From the NCBI RefSeq assembly GCF_900129775.1, contig NZ_FQWV01000001.1:62001-126000 (forward strand): DNA of 64,000 bases, written 5' to 3'. Below the pieces are notes generated by a model. That model did no database searches and had not been told where the DNA came from. It saw only the letters and a program-made list of their open reading frames with translations. Below, piece by piece: positions 11,543-59,694 of the stretch (its first letter is position 1; each line of letters begins with the position of its first letter). Source of the DNA: Halobaculum gomorrense. Lineage in GTDB: Archaea > Halobacteriota > Halobacteria > Halobacteriales > Haloferacaceae. The translations under genes and the position numbers were made by a program.

Positions 11543-11702
11543 GCGGGTCTCGACCGTCCGGGCGGCGTGTCACGGCCTAAGGGTTGTGGAGACGGCCTCA
11601 GTGGCCGGAATCGATCCGTCGGTCCTGCGTCTTACGGCCGCACTCCCGGCACGCCGCGCCGCCGGCCAAACACCGAAGCCCCCGTGGCGCGCGAACGGAC
11701 GT

Positions 11703-11978
11703 ATGAGCGACGACACGGCCGACCCGGGCGCGCCCGCGAGCGCGGCCGACGCCGTCATTGACGAGCGCACCGACGGCTACCGCGAGTCGCTGTTCGACCT
11801 CCTTCGCCTGCGCACCGTCAGCGCGACGGGCGAGGGGATGGACGCCGGCGCCGACGCCGTCCGCGACCTGCTCGCAGAGCACGGCCTCGACGCCCGCCGC
11901 ATCGAGACGGACCGCTACCCGCTGGTGTACGGCGAGCGCGTCGCCGGCGACTCGGAGGCGCCGACCGTGCTGTTCTAC
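11703..11978 (+). pseudogene. M20-family peptidase, N-terminal fragment only
   Basis: About 92 codons read cleanly from the ATG: an acidic start, DAVIDERTDGYRESLFDLL, the RLRTVSATGEG substrate-loop start, DLLAEHGLDA and APTVLFY. This is the beginning of an ArgE/DapE/CPG2-type (M20) metallopeptidase. In intact members TVLFY is followed at once by GHYDVQP, carrying the first zinc ligands. Here homology stops at 11978 and the sequence changes to the terminator and 3' end of the oppositely oriented creatininase gene. About 350 residues with all metal ligands are missing, so it is a broken gene. Confidence 0.75.
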
Positions 11979-11982
11979 AGAG

Positions 11983-12020
11983 AAAACAAGGCGAGTGCCT
12001 CGGGGCTCGACCCCGAGGCA
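11983..12020 (-). terminator. Hairpin terminator behind the creatininase-family gene
   Basis: A perfect 10-bp stem, TGCCTCGGGG / CCCCGAGGCA, with a CTCGA loop (11996-12020) starts 2 nt after the minus-strand stop codon. In the direction of that gene it is followed by a T-rich stretch (TTGTTTTCT, about 11982-11990). This resembles a rho-independent-type stop and may end transcription from the minus strand. It also marks the edge of the block that replaced the end of the M20 peptidase. Confidence 0.55.
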
Positions 12021-12022
12021 GT

Positions 12023-12766
12023 TCACCATCCGTTCCCGATGTCCTCGTTTAGCGCCTCCAGGATCCGCTCGGTCGTGTTGTCCACCACCTCGGCCATGAA
12101 CTCAGGGTCGGAGTTCGTCGGGTCACCCATTCCCCCCAGCTCGGTCACGTCCGAGAAGTACGTCCACGAGCGGGTCTCCGGCGATTCTGCGGCCTCCTGA
12201 GGTTCCTTCCGGTCCGCCTTCACGAGGTCCTCGCGGACGAGTTCGACGAAGCTCGTCTCGTGATCGCCTGCGTGGCCCCACCCCTCGCCGAAGTGCTCCT
12301 CCAGCGCCTCGCGCCCGAAGTCCGTCCAGTGGACGAAGTGGGCCCCGATGTCGTGGTCGCGGTTCAGCCGGTCGCTCGCGAGCGCGAGCGCCTGCTTGTT
12401 GCCGCCGTGGCAGTTGAGAAAGACCACGCGTTCGGCGCCGTGCTCCGCGAGGGAGGCGCCCACGTCGATCAGGACCTGCTTGTACGTGTCCTGCGAGAGC
12501 GTGATCGTCCCGGGGAACGGCATGTGGTGCTCGCTGTCCCCGTACGGGATCGTCGGCGCGCGCAGCAGGTCGAGGCCGTGCTCGGGCGCCGCCTCGACCA
12601 GCGCCGCCGAAAGGTGCTCGGCGCGGAGGCTGTCGGTCGACAGTGGGAGGTGGACGGAGTGTTGCTCGGTGCTGCCTGTGGGGACGACGACCGCATCAGC
12701 GCTCAGAAACGCGTCGCCGGCGTCCTCCCACGTCATCGTCGCGAGGTCGTGTTCGGTCTCGGGCAT
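12023..12766 (-). CDS. Creatininase / ArfB-family amidohydrolase
   Basis: 247 residues, the usual family length. Metal-binding motifs are visible: VPTGSTEQHSVHLPLSTD (E, H and D ligands), FLNCHGGN and a GHAGDHETS segment in which Asp stands where many members have Glu (HAGExETS). The family hydrolyses cyclic amides or formamides with two divalent metals; archaeal members include the ArfB deformylase of flavin/F420 synthesis as well as creatininase-like enzymes. Sequence alone does not tell which. It carries its own downstream hairpin. Confidence 0.85.
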   Translation of the reverse strand: MPETEHDLATMTWEDAGDAFLSADAVVVPTGSTEQHSVHLPLSTDSLRAEHLSAALVEAAPEHGLDLLRAPTIPYGDSEHHMPFPGTITLSQDTYKQVLIDVGASLAEHGAERVVFLNCHGGNKQALALASDRLNRDHDIGAHFVHWTDFGREALEEHFGEGWGHAGDHETSFVELVREDLVKADRKEPQEAAESPETRSWTYFSDVTELGGMGDPTNSDPEFMAEVVDNTTERILEALNEDIGNGW

Positions 12767-12982
12767 ACCCGCCCGCGCGGGAGCCTGAGAAATACGCCTT
12801 CGGGAAGCGGCACGTCGGGGGACCTTGGGAGACGCCCGGAGCGGTCGGACGCGGTCCCCACGGTTTGGGGTCGCATCGTCGCGACCGGCTCCCCGGCGTC
12901 AGCGTCGCCGACCGCCGTTCGACCGTGTGACTGCGACCCGCGAAAGGGTTACAAAGGGATTCGGCATACTCTGCGCCAACTG

Positions 12983-35100: not shown

Positions 35101-35449
35101 TCAGAACAACTCGAACACCAGCCCGAGCGCGGTGAGAGCGCCGACGACCGTCGCGGCGCTCCCAAGCGAGAGGTCGCACGCGTCCGCCAGTCCGTACGTC
35201 CGGATCACGCCCGCCCAGCCGGCGACCGCGAGCGTGTCGGCGAACGCGCCCTCGCCGTCGGCGAGCGCGCTCGCGGCGTGGAGGACGCCGCCCTGCACGA
35301 GCCAGAACACCGGGACGAGCACGACCGCCGCCGGCGGTGACGATCGTGACGAATGCGACGACTGCGGCCGCATGGGCGAACGGCGGGGAGCCGTCGTGGC
35401 GCTCGAAGTAGCTGTCCAGTCGGAGGAGGGGCGTGCGGGGACCTACCAT
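35101..35449 (-). pseudogene. YIP1-like membrane protein, shortened and frameshifted
   Basis: From the ATG at 35449 the first 39 codons (MVGPRTPLLRLDSYFERHDG..., then a hydrophobic run) match the start of haloarchaeal YIP1-like proteins. The continuation VVLVPVFWLVQGGVLHAASALADGEGAFADTLAVAGW...LVFELF is in another frame, crossing near 35330-35345. Intact relatives are roughly 200 residues, with an extracytoplasmic loop between these parts, and that loop is missing. I read it as a gene with an internal deletion plus a frameshift; a sequencing error is less likely because the loop is missing too. Confidence 0.55.
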
Positions 35450-54911: not shown

Positions 54912-55799
54912 TTACCGATACTCGCAGTCGTTCGTCAACTCACCCAGTCCCTCGACGCCGATAGTGACGGTGTCGCCCTCAGCCAGCAACACCGGCGGCT
55001 CGCGGTAGACGCCGACGCCCGGCGGCGTCCCGGTGAAGATGAGGTCGCCCGGCTTCAGCGTGAACGCCTGGCTGCAGAAGGAGACCAACTCGTCGACGCC
55101 GAAGATGAGTTGGTCGGTCGAGGAGTCCTGCAGGCGCTCGCCGTTGACCTCGGCGTAGATCGCGAGGTCGTGCGGGTCGTCGACCTCGTCGGCCGTGACC
55201 AGCTCCGGTCCGGTCGGGGCGAACCCGTCGAGGCTCTTCCCGCGGACCCACTGGCCGTCGCCGTGCTGGAGGTCGCGGGCGGACACGTCGTTGCCGACGA
55301 GGTAGCCGGCGACGTGGTCCATCGCCTCGTCCTCGCTTACTCGGCGGGCCTCCTCGCCGATCACGACGACGAGCTCGGCCTCGTAGTCGACCTTCTCGGT
55401 GAGGTCGGGGTCCCAGCCGATCGCGTCGTCGGGCCCGGCGACGGTCGTCGGGAACTTCGAGAACAACACCGGCGTCTCGGGGAGGTCGTAGCCCCCCTCC
55501 TCGGCGTGGTCGCGGTAGTTCAGCCCGACGCAGACCACCTTCTCGGGGTCGCTCACGGGCGCGTGCCTGTCCACCTCGCTCGCGTCGTACAGGCCGGTTC
55601 CGGTCTCCTCGGCGTACTCGACGGCCAGTTCCGCCTTTCGTCGCCACTCCCAGTCAGCGAGGAGGTCGACGGTCGCGCCGGGGATGTCGACGCCCGCGGC
55701 CGCGCCGGCTTCGGGGAGGCGAACGATCGTGTCGTCGTCGCGGACGGCGCCGGTCCACGCGGCGTCGTCCTCGGGTGTGCTATATTGTCCGAATCGCAT
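54912..55799 (-). CDS. Fumarylacetoacetate-hydrolase-family protein
   Basis: 295 residues from the ATG at 55799. The metal site appears as YEAELVVVIGE (E..E), with GNDVSARDLQ and KSLDGFAPTGPELVT and a typical C-terminal FTGTPPGVG. FAH-family enzymes hydrolyse, isomerise or decarboxylate acylpyruvates and hydroxymuconates in aromatic or amino-acid degradation. It follows the AtzA/TrzA-like amidohydrolase gene by 72 nt, so both are probably in the TetR-controlled transcript. It ends beside the inverted-repeat element. Confidence 0.9.
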   Translation of the reverse strand: MRFGQYSTPEDDAAWTGAVRDDDTIVRLPEAGAAAGVDIPGATVDLLADWEWRRKAELAVEYAEETGTGLYDASEVDRHAPVSDPEKVVCVGLNYRDHAEEGGYDLPETPVLFSKFPTTVAGPDDAIGWDPDLTEKVDYEAELVVVIGEEARRVSEDEAMDHVAGYLVGNDVSARDLQHGDGQWVRGKSLDGFAPTGPELVTADEVDDPHDLAIYAEVNGERLQDSSTDQLIFGVDELVSFCSQAFTLKPGDLIFTGTPPGVGVYREPPVLLAEGDTVTIGVEGLGELTNDCEYR

Positions 55800-55871
55800 C
55801 TGTGTATCGTGAATGGGTGTCGTGCCGTGGTGTGTTTGCCGTGCCGTGCTTCGGCGTCGCCGCACCGTCCC

Positions 55872-57227
55872 TCAGAGGTCGATCCCGGCCTCGTCGATGA
55901 GCCGGTGTCCGGACTCGACGAACCGGTCGAATTCGGCGTCGACGAGGTCGTTCGTCAGTTCGCCGTTCCGCTTGACGGGCTCGCCGTCGACGAGCACGGT
56001 GTCGATGTGGGAGGGATCCGACTGGAAGACGATCGTCTGCACAGCCGAGTGCGACGGCGCAGTCATGAAGTCGCTCGCGTCGAGCACCACCACGTCAGCG
56101 CGCTTGCCGGGGGTGAGCGTGCCGATCTCGTCGTCCAGCTCAAGGGCGCGGGCGCCCTCGATCGTCGCCATCTCCAGCGTGTCGCGAGCGGTGATGCCCA
56201 GTTCGGTCACTTCCTCGCCGGCCTCGATGATCTCCTGGTTGCGGAACATCCGCTGAACCTGCATCCCGACCCGCATCTGGCTGCTCATGTCGCCGCTGAC
56301 GTTCGAGCAGACGTCGACGCCCCACGTCGGGCGGCCGCCGGCCTCGAGCACCTTCCCGGTGACTGGAATGCCGTGACCCATCTGCATCTCGACCTCCGGC
56401 GTCGAGGAGAAGGAGACGCCCTGCTCGACGGCGTGATCGATGTCTTCCTGTGAGAAGTGGTTCCCGTGGGCGACGTTCACGTCGGGACCGAGCATGTCCT
56501 CGTAGGCGCCGAAGCCCTGGTACTCGGGGTTGTACTCCGAAGAGGTCCACTGCGCGGCGCCCATGTGGATGGTCGAGAGCGCGTCCAGCTCCCGCGCCAG
56601 CTCCAGGTCGGCGACGGCGGTCTCGTCGGTGCAGAAGTCGGGGCCGCGGAGCCCGATTGCCAGGCTGAGGAGGTCGTCGTCGTCGATCTTCTCGCCGTAC
56701 AGTTCGCGGATGTTCTCCTCGGGAAGCCCCACGTCGCTGTCGTACCACCACGTCGCCGCGTCGTCGCCCGGCGGGCCGTAAGTGTACACCGCGCGCAGTC
56801 CGGCGTCCTGCAGCGCGTCGACGGCGCGCTCGCCGTGTTCGAGCGTGTTGGGGTACGACCAGTCGAGGGCGGTGGTCGTCCCCGTGGCGAGCTTCTCGAA
56901 GGCGCCGAACAGGCCGCCGAGGTACATGTCCTCGGGTCGGTAGAGCCCGGTGATGTTGCCGAGCATGTGCTCGAAGTACTCACCCATGAGCGACCAGTCG
57001 CCGGCGATGCCCCTGACCTGCGTCTGTGCGAGGTGAATGTGCGAGTCGACGAGTCCGGGGAAGACAATCTTCCCCGACGCGTCGATCTCCTCGGCGTTCG
57101 CGTCCGAGAGGTCCTCGCCGACCTCGACGATCTTGCTGTCCTCGATCAGCACGTCGCCGCCGTCGATCTCCCCGATATCGGGATCCAGCGTGACGACCGT
57201 CCCATTCTTAATGATCGTTTGTCCCAT
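55872..57227 (-). CDS. AtzA/TrzA-like amidohydrolase (deaminase superfamily)
   Basis: 451 residues from the ATG at 57227 (an ATG at 57242 in the same frame is equally possible). Composite domain (ends of the chain) plus TIM barrel: metal His pair VDSHIHLAQT, then STIHMGAAQ and VAHGNHFS, and the TWGVDVCSN Asp. This is the group with S-adenosylhomocysteine deaminase, guanine deaminase and triazine hydrolases; haloarchaeal substrates are unknown. The operator copy at 57263-57278 overlaps its likely TATA, so repression by the divergent TetR gene is strongly implied. Confidence 0.87.
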   Translation of the reverse strand: MGQTIIKNGTVVTLDPDIGEIDGGDVLIEDSKIVEVGEDLSDANAEEIDASGKIVFPGLVDSHIHLAQTQVRGIAGDWSLMGEYFEHMLGNITGLYRPEDMYLGGLFGAFEKLATGTTTALDWSYPNTLEHGERAVDALQDAGLRAVYTYGPPGDDAATWWYDSDVGLPEENIRELYGEKIDDDDLLSLAIGLRGPDFCTDETAVADLELARELDALSTIHMGAAQWTSSEYNPEYQGFGAYEDMLGPDVNVAHGNHFSQEDIDHAVEQGVSFSSTPEVEMQMGHGIPVTGKVLEAGGRPTWGVDVCSNVSGDMSSQMRVGMQVQRMFRNQEIIEAGEEVTELGITARDTLEMATIEGARALELDDEIGTLTPGKRADVVVLDASDFMTAPSHSAVQTIVFQSDPSHIDTVLVDGEPVKRNGELTNDLVDAEFDRFVESGHRLIDEAGIDL

Positions 57228-57262
57228 GTGCATCGGCAACATGGGTGTGTGGGTATGAAAGT

Positions 57263-57278
57263 ATTACCATTTGGTAAA
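57263..57278. promoter_or_regulatory. TetR-type operator copy 2 (between amidohydrolase and tetR)
   Basis: ATTACC-ATTT-GGTAAA, one base off the TTTACC-N4-GGTAAA consensus. It lies between the divergent amidohydrolase and TetR genes, covering the minus-strand promoter about 21-36 nt upstream of a possible ATG at 57242. The TetR gene has its own TATA (GCTATATG, about 57306-57313) some 30 nt to the right. The site would let the regulator control its neighbour and perhaps itself. Confidence 0.65.
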
Positions 57279-57336: not shown

Positions 57337-57981
57337 ATGAGCAAGTCGGAGGAGGGGTCCGTCCCGGCGGACACCCGCGAGGACATCATGGAGGCGACGT
57401 TTCGCGCGCTCAGCGAGCACGGCTACTCCGACCTCCGCATGCGCGACATCGGCGAGGAGATGGAGATGACGCGCCAGGTGATCCACTACCACTACGACGG
57501 GAAGCAGGACCTCATGTCGAGTTTCCTCGAGTACATCATCGACCAGTACGAGGGCAGCGTCGAGGTCGACGGCGACGCCCCGCCGCGGAAGGAGTTGGAG
57601 GTCCGCGTCCACCAGTGCCTGTTCGGCCCCGGGTTCGAGGAGTTCTCCCACTGGGACCGCATGAAAGTATACCACGAGCTGTTCACCCACGCCCAGAACG
57701 ACGCCGAGCACCGCGCCATCTTCAACGAGCACTACGACCGCATCCGCGGCAGCATCACCGAGGTGATCGAGGACGGCATCGATCGGGGCGTCTTCCGCGA
57801 CACCGACCCCGAGCGGGCGGGGCAACTGATCACCGACATCATTCACGCCGCCCGCGGCCGGAAGCTCTCGCTGGGCCACGACGACGCCCCCGATCAGGCG
57901 TGGCGTTCCATCGACGAGTTCGTCGTCGATTCGCTGCTCGCCGACGGCGTCGAGCCCGGCGCCGACGGGTCCGACGCCTGA
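57337..57981 (+). CDS. TetR/AcrR-family regulator
   Basis: 214 residues from the ATG at 57337, 25-30 nt after a CTATATG box. The N-terminal TetR helix-turn-helix (residues about 11-57) reads ADTREDIMEATFRALSEHGYSDLRMRDIG, then EMTRQVIHYHYDGKQDLMSSF. The all-helical C-terminal domain is of the size for ligand binding and dimerisation. Inferred operator: the TTTACC-N4-GGTAAA palindrome present in three promoters of this island, including the divergent one. The inducer is unknown, possibly an acyl-CoA given the CaiB/thiolase genes nearby. Confidence 0.88.
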   Translation: MSKSEEGSVPADTREDIMEATFRALSEHGYSDLRMRDIGEEMEMTRQVIHYHYDGKQDLMSSFLEYIIDQYEGSVEVDGDAPPRKELEVRVHQCLFGPGFEEFSHWDRMKVYHELFTHAQNDAEHRAIFNEHYDRIRGSITEVIEDGIDRGVFRDTDPERAGQLITDIIHAARGRKLSLGHDDAPDQAWRSIDEFVVDSLLADGVEPGADGSDA

Positions 57982-58025: not shown

Positions 58026-59039
58026 TCATCTCTCGTCCTCGTTTTCCCCGTGCTCGACCACGCGCAGCCGCGGCTGTCGCTCCTCGTCGCCGTTGCGGAG
58101 CCTGAACGCCCCCGCGAACGCGACCCGGTCGCCGACGGCCGCCTCGCCGTCGACCTGCGCGATCAGGCCGACGCCGTCGAAGTCGGCCAGCGCGAGCGAG
58201 TTCGGCGAGCGCACGTCGCCGGGGGCGACGCCAGCGGCGTCGAACAGGCGCTCGCCGGCGACGCGAACGCTGTCGATAGCCAGCGGGTCCGGTCGCTCGG
58301 CGACCGGGTGGGTTCCGGTCGCGCTCGCGTGGGCCGCCACTCGGACTGCGTGATCGGTGTCGGCAACGGAATCGGTGCGCGTCACGACGATCGCCGCCGC
58401 GCCGTCGCTCATCGGGCAGCAGTCGTACAGCCTGAGCGGCTCGGCGACGACCGGCGAGTCGAGCGCCTCGTCGACGCTCACCTCACGGCGGAACTGCGCG
58501 ACCTCGTTGGCGACGGCGTTGCGGTGGTTCTTCGCGGCGACGGCCGCCAGCGCCTCCCGCGGGGCGTCGTACCTGTCGAGGTACGCGCCGGCCGCGAGCC
58601 CGGCGAACGACGGGAGCGTGAGTCCCTGCGCGTACTCGCGGGAGTGTGTGAGTCGACTGATGGCGTCGGTCACCGCCGAGGTGTCGGCGGCGGACATCCG
58701 ATCGGCGCCGACGACGAGCGCGACCTCGGAGGCGCCGCTCGCGACCGCCTCGATGCCGCGGTGGACCGCCGTCGCCCCGGTCGCGCTCGTGTTCTCGACG
58801 CGGTCGGCGGCGACGCCCTCGATCCTGAGCGCCCCCGCGAGCGCGTTCGCGAGCCCCGACTGCTGGCCGAGCGCCTCTGCCAGCGCGGTGCCCGCGTGTA
58901 GCGAGGTTACGTCCGCGCGGTCGAGGCCGGCGTCGTCGAGGCACCGCCAACAGGCCGTCGCCGCCAGGTCGACGAGCGGGCGGTCGTCGGCCGAGGTGAA
59001 ACGGGTCATGCCGACGCCGGGGAGCGCGACCTCCGTCAT
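58026..59039 (-). pseudogene. Thiolase, truncated and apparently fused to a DUF35/OB-fold tail
   Basis: 337 residues from the ATG at 59039 (TGATG overlap with the upstream remnant). Residues 1 to about 275 are a thiolase of the SCP2-like type (VENTSATGATAVHRGIEAV..., LYDCCPMSDGAAAIVV). The site usually holding the nucleophile Cys is Ser85. The last 58 residues (LALADFDGVGLIAQVDGEAAVGDRVAF, then PRLRVV) look like the C-terminal OB fold of DUF35 partners, and the GHPxGATG catalytic end is gone. I infer that a deletion joined the two neighbouring genes in frame. A folded non-catalytic product is possible. Confidence 0.65.
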
Positions 59040-59340
59040 CACTCCTCGGCGTCGTCCGCGTCGCCGAAGACCCCCGCGGCCGCCAGCTCGTCGAGTTCCG
59101 CCTCCGAGTAGCCCAACTCCGCGAACACCTCGCGGTTGTGCTCGCCCAACAGCGGCGGCGCCCGGTCGGACCCGCTCTCGCCGTTCGCGAACTTGAGCGG
59201 GTGCTCGATCACCGGAATATCGCCCAGATCGGGGTGTTCGATCATAGATCGAGGACCTTCACGCCCCCCAGCATCTTCCCCTGCGTCGGTGGTGCGTCGG
59301 TGTCGGTGTCTGTGTCGGTGTCAGTGTCTGTGTCGGACAT
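59039..59340 (-). pseudogene. CaiB/BaiF CoA-transferase reduced to its two ends
   Basis: From the ATG at 59340 there are 32 codons: an Asp-Thr repeat, then GKMLGGVKVLDL, the CaiB opening; the frame then stops at 59242. Overlapping it, the C-terminal 68 residues (MIEHPDLGDIPVIEHPLKFANGESG...APPLLGEHNREVFAELGYSEAELDELAAAG) read on in another frame from 59245 to 59039. Intact CaiB proteins have about 390 residues, so some 300 in the middle are deleted, with loss of frame. A perfect TetR-type operator lies upstream, so the operon promoter has outlived the enzyme. Confidence 0.8.
59291..59336 (-). repeat. Six-base (GACACN)n repeat coding Asp-Thr
   Basis: At the start of the CaiB remnant the coding strand runs GACACA/GACACT/GACACC, giving about six Asp-Thr dipeptides. 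Such acidic, low-complexity N-terminal repeats vary in number by slippage and are common in haloarchaeal proteins; nothing more is implied. Confidence 0.5.
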
Positions 59341-59694
59341 TGTGGTGTTCCGTGCCGCGAGGCGTCCCGCGGCGGCTTCGTCGTCTCTCGTTTGGTTTAC
59401 CGCTCGGTAAATCTTTCGGCGGCGCCGACCGGTTCCCCGCCATGCTCACCGTTCTCACGCGCACTGTTTCACGTGCCACGCGACCCCAAACACCGCGATG
59501 GGACCGGATCGGCGTGCGGGCGGAGCGAAGAGGCCCGATCGCACATCCGCCACCGCGGATCAGGAACCGCGCTGTGGTTGACCTCGGTTCCGGGAGACGT
59601 GCTGAACGAGCGGGGGGTACAGACGGATCGGGCGGGTGGCAGGAGCGGCTGAGGAACGGGTGAGCGGAGTCGGCCGGCGGGCGCCCCGGCGACG
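59341..59694. other. 354-nt region with operator copy 3 and no gene
   Basis: Both strands were read. The left part holds the operator for the CaiB/thiolase operon, then GC-rich sequence follows with no open frame of plausible codon pattern, up to the end of the DUF2249 gene at 59695. It contains a short CACGTG-type palindrome but no tRNA-like or repeat structure. Confidence 0.5.
59396..59411. promoter_or_regulatory. TetR-type operator copy 3, perfect palindrome (upstream of CaiB remnant)
   Basis: TTTACC-GCTC-GGTAAA, a perfect 6+6 inverted repeat and the best match in the window to the consensus. It lies 55-71 nt upstream of the CaiB-remnant ATG on the minus strand. No separate AT-rich TATA stands out, so the ATTTACC part may double as the core promoter. 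Confidence 0.65.

Follow-up and report, generated by a model that had tools for sequence, protein, structure and literature searches.

The window analysed here is a stretch of 64,000 nucleotides from Halobaculum gomorrense. It contains a minus-strand open reading frame (58026–59039) that begins as a thiolase-like gene and ends as a DUF35 gene. The frame is open for 337 codons from the ATG at 59039, or for 338 from a GTG one codon upstream, which is also a possible start. A preliminary description, made from the sequence alone, had proposed that this is an in-frame thiolase-DUF35 chimera that has lost its catalytic residues, and that it is either a scaffold or a dead protein. Is this ORF a new protein that has been retained for some function? 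Or, is it the broken remains of two genes that happen to have been left open? Comparison with other species of the genus indicates that it is very probably a recent pseudogene, generated by a repeat-mediated deletion within a dispensable TetR-controlled acyl-CoA operon that is being lost.

The thiolase-like part of the ORF, residues 1–272 (58224–59039, minus strand), is 88–91% identical to the thiolases of sister genomes. It contains a complete Thiolase_N domain (Pfam PF00108, residues 12–223), with a serine, Ser85, at the usual position of the nucleophilic cysteine. Of the C-terminal domain only the start is present; Pfam identifies no Thiolase_C in the fused ORF, and PF22691, the C-terminal thiolase domain at residues 248–391 of the sister protein, is mostly gone. 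The closest relatives, from the congeners G002, G004 and G006, align over residues 1–276 or 1–277 at 88–91% identity. The remainder is a DUF35 OB-fold tail (58026–58212, minus strand), 76% identical to the last 68 or so residues (64–131) of the sister DUF35 protein. Neither this tail alone nor the DUF35 protein of G006 is recognised by Pfam above its cut-off. The fused product comprises approximately 276 residues from the thiolase and 60 from the OB fold. It has neither the HDAF and GHPLGATG motifs nor the DUF35 zinc ribbon, and the OB fold is without its first residues. The absence of the GHPxGATG end, which had been noted before, is real: the GHP motif of catalytic thiolases is present in the intact orthologues and has been deleted here. 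Likewise, of the zinc ribbon and OB fold (PF12172 and PF01796) that make up a DUF35/ChsH2 protein, the chimera has only the approximately 60 OB-fold residues.

In the sister genomes the gene order is class III CoA-transferase (PF02515), thiolase-like gene, DUF35 gene, a convergent TetR gene, amidohydrolase and fumarylacetoacetate (FAA) hydrolase. The thiolase-like proteins are 384–392 amino acids long, with both the N- and C-terminal domains complete, and the DUF35 protein of G006 has 132 amino acids. The thiolase and DUF35 genes are separate and intact in G004 and G006. In G002 the thiolase gene is intact and the DUF35 gene (L021) has a one-base frameshift, which may be a sequencing error or else an independent decay of the module. 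Since the sisters hold both ancestral genes, the proposed chimera did arise by deletion, and its likeness to two families is not fortuitous.

The DUF35 assignment was checked on 16 orthologues, of which PF01796 and PF12172 each match 13 (best E values 1.6e-07 and 2e-05, respectively). A profile of these orthologues matches the DUF35 chains in the PDB of thiolase/HMGCS, benzoylsuccinyl-CoA thiolase and ChsH2. The orthologues also show the C-x2-C-x10-C-x2-C pattern, which is known from the zinc ribbons of DUF35 proteins (PMC12329534). In SSO2064, residues 43–76 form the zinc ribbon and residues 77–144 the OB fold (PMC2954200). Zinc ribbon and OB fold are likewise combined in the known thiolase/DUF35 complexes, which include the archaeal acetoacetyl-CoA thiolase/HMGCS (6ESQ), PhlABC, BbsAB, Ltp2-ChsH2 and Sal-Shy. 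These have the same partner architecture as the ancestral pair, whereas in the window the pair has collapsed into one broken ORF.

Between the BLAST segments that flank the missing stretch, the window lacks 539 bp in comparison with G006 and 559 bp in comparison with G002, and in the window itself these segments share 12 bases. At the base level, the junction falls in ACGTCGCCGGG (58213–58223), close to the 58200–58220 region where it had been expected. This is the one remaining copy of an 11-bp direct repeat, ACGTCGYCGGG, coding on the minus strand for P273-G-D-V276. There are two copies in the sisters, ACGTCGCCGGG within the DUF35 gene and ACGTCGTCGGG within the thiolase gene, with one mismatch between them; their offset is 551 bp in G006 and 571 bp in G002. 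When pairs of positions are drawn at random from this region, only 0.06% have a repeat of this length with no more than one mismatch. The sister genomes bear out a deletion with one end in each gene and the frame kept, and it has the features of a repeat-mediated event: sequence is missing between short direct repeats and one copy is left at the junction. The retention of the frame had been regarded as rare. On the coding strand of G006, however, the repeat is read as P-D-D-V in the thiolase and as P-G-D-V in the DUF35 protein. Because the phase (P-x-D-V) is the same in both genes, an in-frame join needs no selection and is not remarkable in itself.

Such a mechanism has a documented haloarchaeal precedent. 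In Haloquadratum walsbyi, deletions between repeats of 4–20 bp have been reported, including 16 cases with direct repeats of 10–19 bp in which one copy is left, as is the case here (PMC3119063). In both systems the copies vary slightly in the undeleted genome, and in Haloquadratum the frame is sometimes conserved. The Haloquadratum comparison was made between two strains of one species with 98.6% identity, whereas the window is compared with other congeneric species at 85–90% DNA identity, so the ancestral repeat is deduced rather than observed.

What of the serine at position 85? It had been taken for a decayed nucleophile, one base from a cysteine codon. The codon is AGC in the window ORF and also in all three sisters. 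Over 105 related loci, a few of which represent one gene counted twice, the position is serine in 96, proline in eight, threonine in one and cysteine in none. ST0096 of Sulfolobus tokodaii (PDB 4YZO) also has NTS there. The sister codons and the lack of any cysteine in the 105 loci rule out a lost cysteine and, together with ST0096, show that Ser85 is the ancestral state. The N-terminal nucleophilic cysteine of catalytic thiolases is absent from the chimera and from all of the intact orthologues alike. ST0096 shares with these orthologues both the serine (NTS[AG].G) and the GHP motif; it has HDMA where they have HDAF, and the chimera differs from it in lacking the C-terminal domain. In contrast, the nucleophile is cysteine in 6ESQ and PhlC (PMC6392133). 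Ltp2 and Sal demonstrate that a protein of the thiolase fold with a DUF35 partner can act as an aldolase even though it has no nucleophilic cysteine (PMC12329534). A steroid aldolase of this type was rejected for the orthologues, in which HDAF is found and the catalytic motifs YDHF of Ltp2 and YDCY of Sal (PMC12329534) are missing. A large archaeal thiolase-like family (L028–L107) was also observed to have serine or proline in place of the nucleophilic cysteine, and some of its members adjoin DUF35 genes.

The damage extends beyond the fused ORF. There are three separate deletions, and two genes upstream of the chimera, overlooked in the preliminary description, have been destroyed by deletions of their own. 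The class III (CaiB-type) CoA-transferase is reduced to a C-terminal remnant of about 68 amino acids (59039–59246, minus strand; 87% identity to sister residues 342–411) and a 5' remnant of 32 codons (59242–59340, minus strand). The latter ends in a TGA at 59242–59244 that was made by the deletion junction. Here 967–969 bp are missing at 59243/59244–59246, which breaks the frame and leads to an immediate stop. No repeat was found at this junction, so this deletion arose another way. The next gene upstream, for a DUF6498 membrane protein of approximately 413 amino acids in G006, has lost about 1.2 kb. It is present as a 5' stub (59491–59617, minus strand), with the 3' end joined near 59500. Elsewhere in the genome no intact thiolase was found, the best other match having 45% identity, and no intact backup copy of the DUF35 or CoA-transferase gene.

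Other parts of the window also differ from both sisters. At 35101–35373 and 35214–35337, a second gene has two internal deletions of approximately 158 and 187 bp; at their junctions are short repeats of about 5 bp and 8 bp. This gene codes for a Yip1-domain membrane protein in G006, and only fragments of it are present in the window. Additionally, there are three places within 11613–12920 where both sisters hold an extra 1.6–5.2 kb that the window lacks.

On the other side of the fused ORF the genes are intact. These are the TetR-family regulator (57337–57981, plus strand; assigned by Pfam, 92–94% identity in four congeners), an ATZ/TRZ-like amidohydrolase (55872–57242, minus strand; window-branch ω 0.023) and a fumarylacetoacetate-hydrolase family protein (54912–55865, minus strand; window-branch ω 0.030). 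A palindrome, TTTACCGAGCGGTAAA (59396–59411), is located upstream of the CoA-transferase start and is a probable TetR operator that the sisters have too. Another, TTACCATTTGGTAA (57264–57277), lies between the TetR and amidohydrolase genes and is also a probable operator. The motif TTACCN4GGTAA has three copies genome-wide. Since two of these are at the CoA-transferase promoter and in the TetR/amidohydrolase intergenic region, control of both transcripts by TetR is likely. The third copy is at G000:C5:189328. With the start region and the upstream operator preserved, the fused ORF could still be expressed.

Could it then be a functional protein, for example a non-catalytic scaffold or regulatory subunit in which an OB fold is attached to a thiolase N-domain? 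The preserved start and operator and the open frame of 337 codons would fit this explanation, as would the thiolase part, in which ω is not raised on the window branch (0.072 versus 0.062). Most of the divergence of this part therefore predates the deletion: the event is recent, or some constraint on the part persists. The DUF35 tail is weakly relaxed (ω 0.69 versus 0.12, 2ΔlnL 2.2). Against a retained function are the loss of half of the thiolase fold, of the zinc ribbon and of the start of the OB fold, and the death of the neighbouring gene. In the remnant of that CoA-transferase, ω in the window is 0.30 versus 0.022 (2ΔlnL 5.8) and the window-unique changes are four non-synonymous to no synonymous. 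The chimera itself has changes, G71R and E112D (numbered without the initial Met), at two positions invariant in 24 homologues, whereas the three sister proteins have none. The tail is predicted to be unfolded: in an alignment-based AlphaFold2 model it is below pLDDT 50, with residues 294–336 at approximately 31–37, although this is weak evidence as MAFFT placed the DUF35 rows badly. That model is usable for the thiolase part only, where the N-domain is mostly at pLDDT 70–95. A single-sequence model of the chimera was uninformative (mean pLDDT 34). No other fusion of the thiolase/DUF35-tail type was found among 60 relatives searched, and the phase of the repeat alone accounts for the open frame. 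A functional protein is thus improbable, and slightly more so is the specific case in which the TetR-controlled promoter still drives the ORF and its product has been maintained as a small binding or scaffold protein without catalytic activity. A functional fusion, if true, would be a new combination of folds, but nothing here supports function.

We give equally little credence to an artefact of assembly or sequencing in an organism whose operon is intact. Several separate deletions within 1.5 kb do look odd. However, the k-mers normally used in assembly are far longer than an 11-bp repeat, and the CoA-transferase junction lacks repeats altogether; a mis-join would therefore be hard to produce. 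Deletions of the same style occur elsewhere in the window, genome completeness is 99.89%, the contig that carries the window is 703 kb long, and the thiolase part has unique changes of its own at invariant sites. Finally, a normal subfamily of 337-residue thiolases with an OB tail, the alternative that the preliminary description had raised against itself, is ruled out by the sister genomes and the other close relatives, none of which has a thiolase with such a tail: they align over residues 1–277 only and then continue into a full thiolase C-terminus, and most have a separate DUF35 gene.

The pseudogene reading is also consistent with the distribution of the thiolase/DUF35 pair, which from the available sequences is often lost or absent across the genus. 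In G009 (L120) and G007 (L121) the CoA-transferase and TetR genes are approximately 70–110 bp apart and the pair is absent. The flanks in G009 are 94% identical to those of G006, which suggests loss rather than gain of the pair in that genome. In G005 the CoA-transferase is present, and both the pair and the corresponding TetR are absent. No close CoA-transferase or TetR was found in G001, G003, G008 and G010.

The ancestor of this locus had, as the sisters do, an operon of a class III CoA-transferase, a Cys-less thiolase-like gene and a DUF35 gene, beside the TetR, amidohydrolase and FAA hydrolase genes. Some 540–560 bp were deleted between the approximately 11-bp direct repeats of the thiolase and DUF35 genes, leaving one copy, and the shared P-x-D-V frame kept the product open. 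Without a C-terminal domain, a zinc ribbon or the start of the OB fold, this product is expected neither to adopt the thiolase fold nor to assemble into a thiolase/DUF35 complex, and parts essential to the ancestral fold or activity have been lost, as in a pseudogene. The CoA-transferase and the gene upstream of it were destroyed by separate deletions. For this reason this lineage could probably do without the pathway, which is probably disappearing piece by piece, like the pair in other congeners. Of scaffold and dead protein, the lost parts, the gutted neighbours and the changes at invariant sites favour the latter.

For the family, serine at the thiolase nucleophile is a trait of an archaeal Cys-less subfamily that is paired with DUF35, and not a sign of decay. 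For the genome, a direct repeat in matching codon phase in adjacent genes can convert a deletion into an open chimeric frame that automated annotation would list as a protein.
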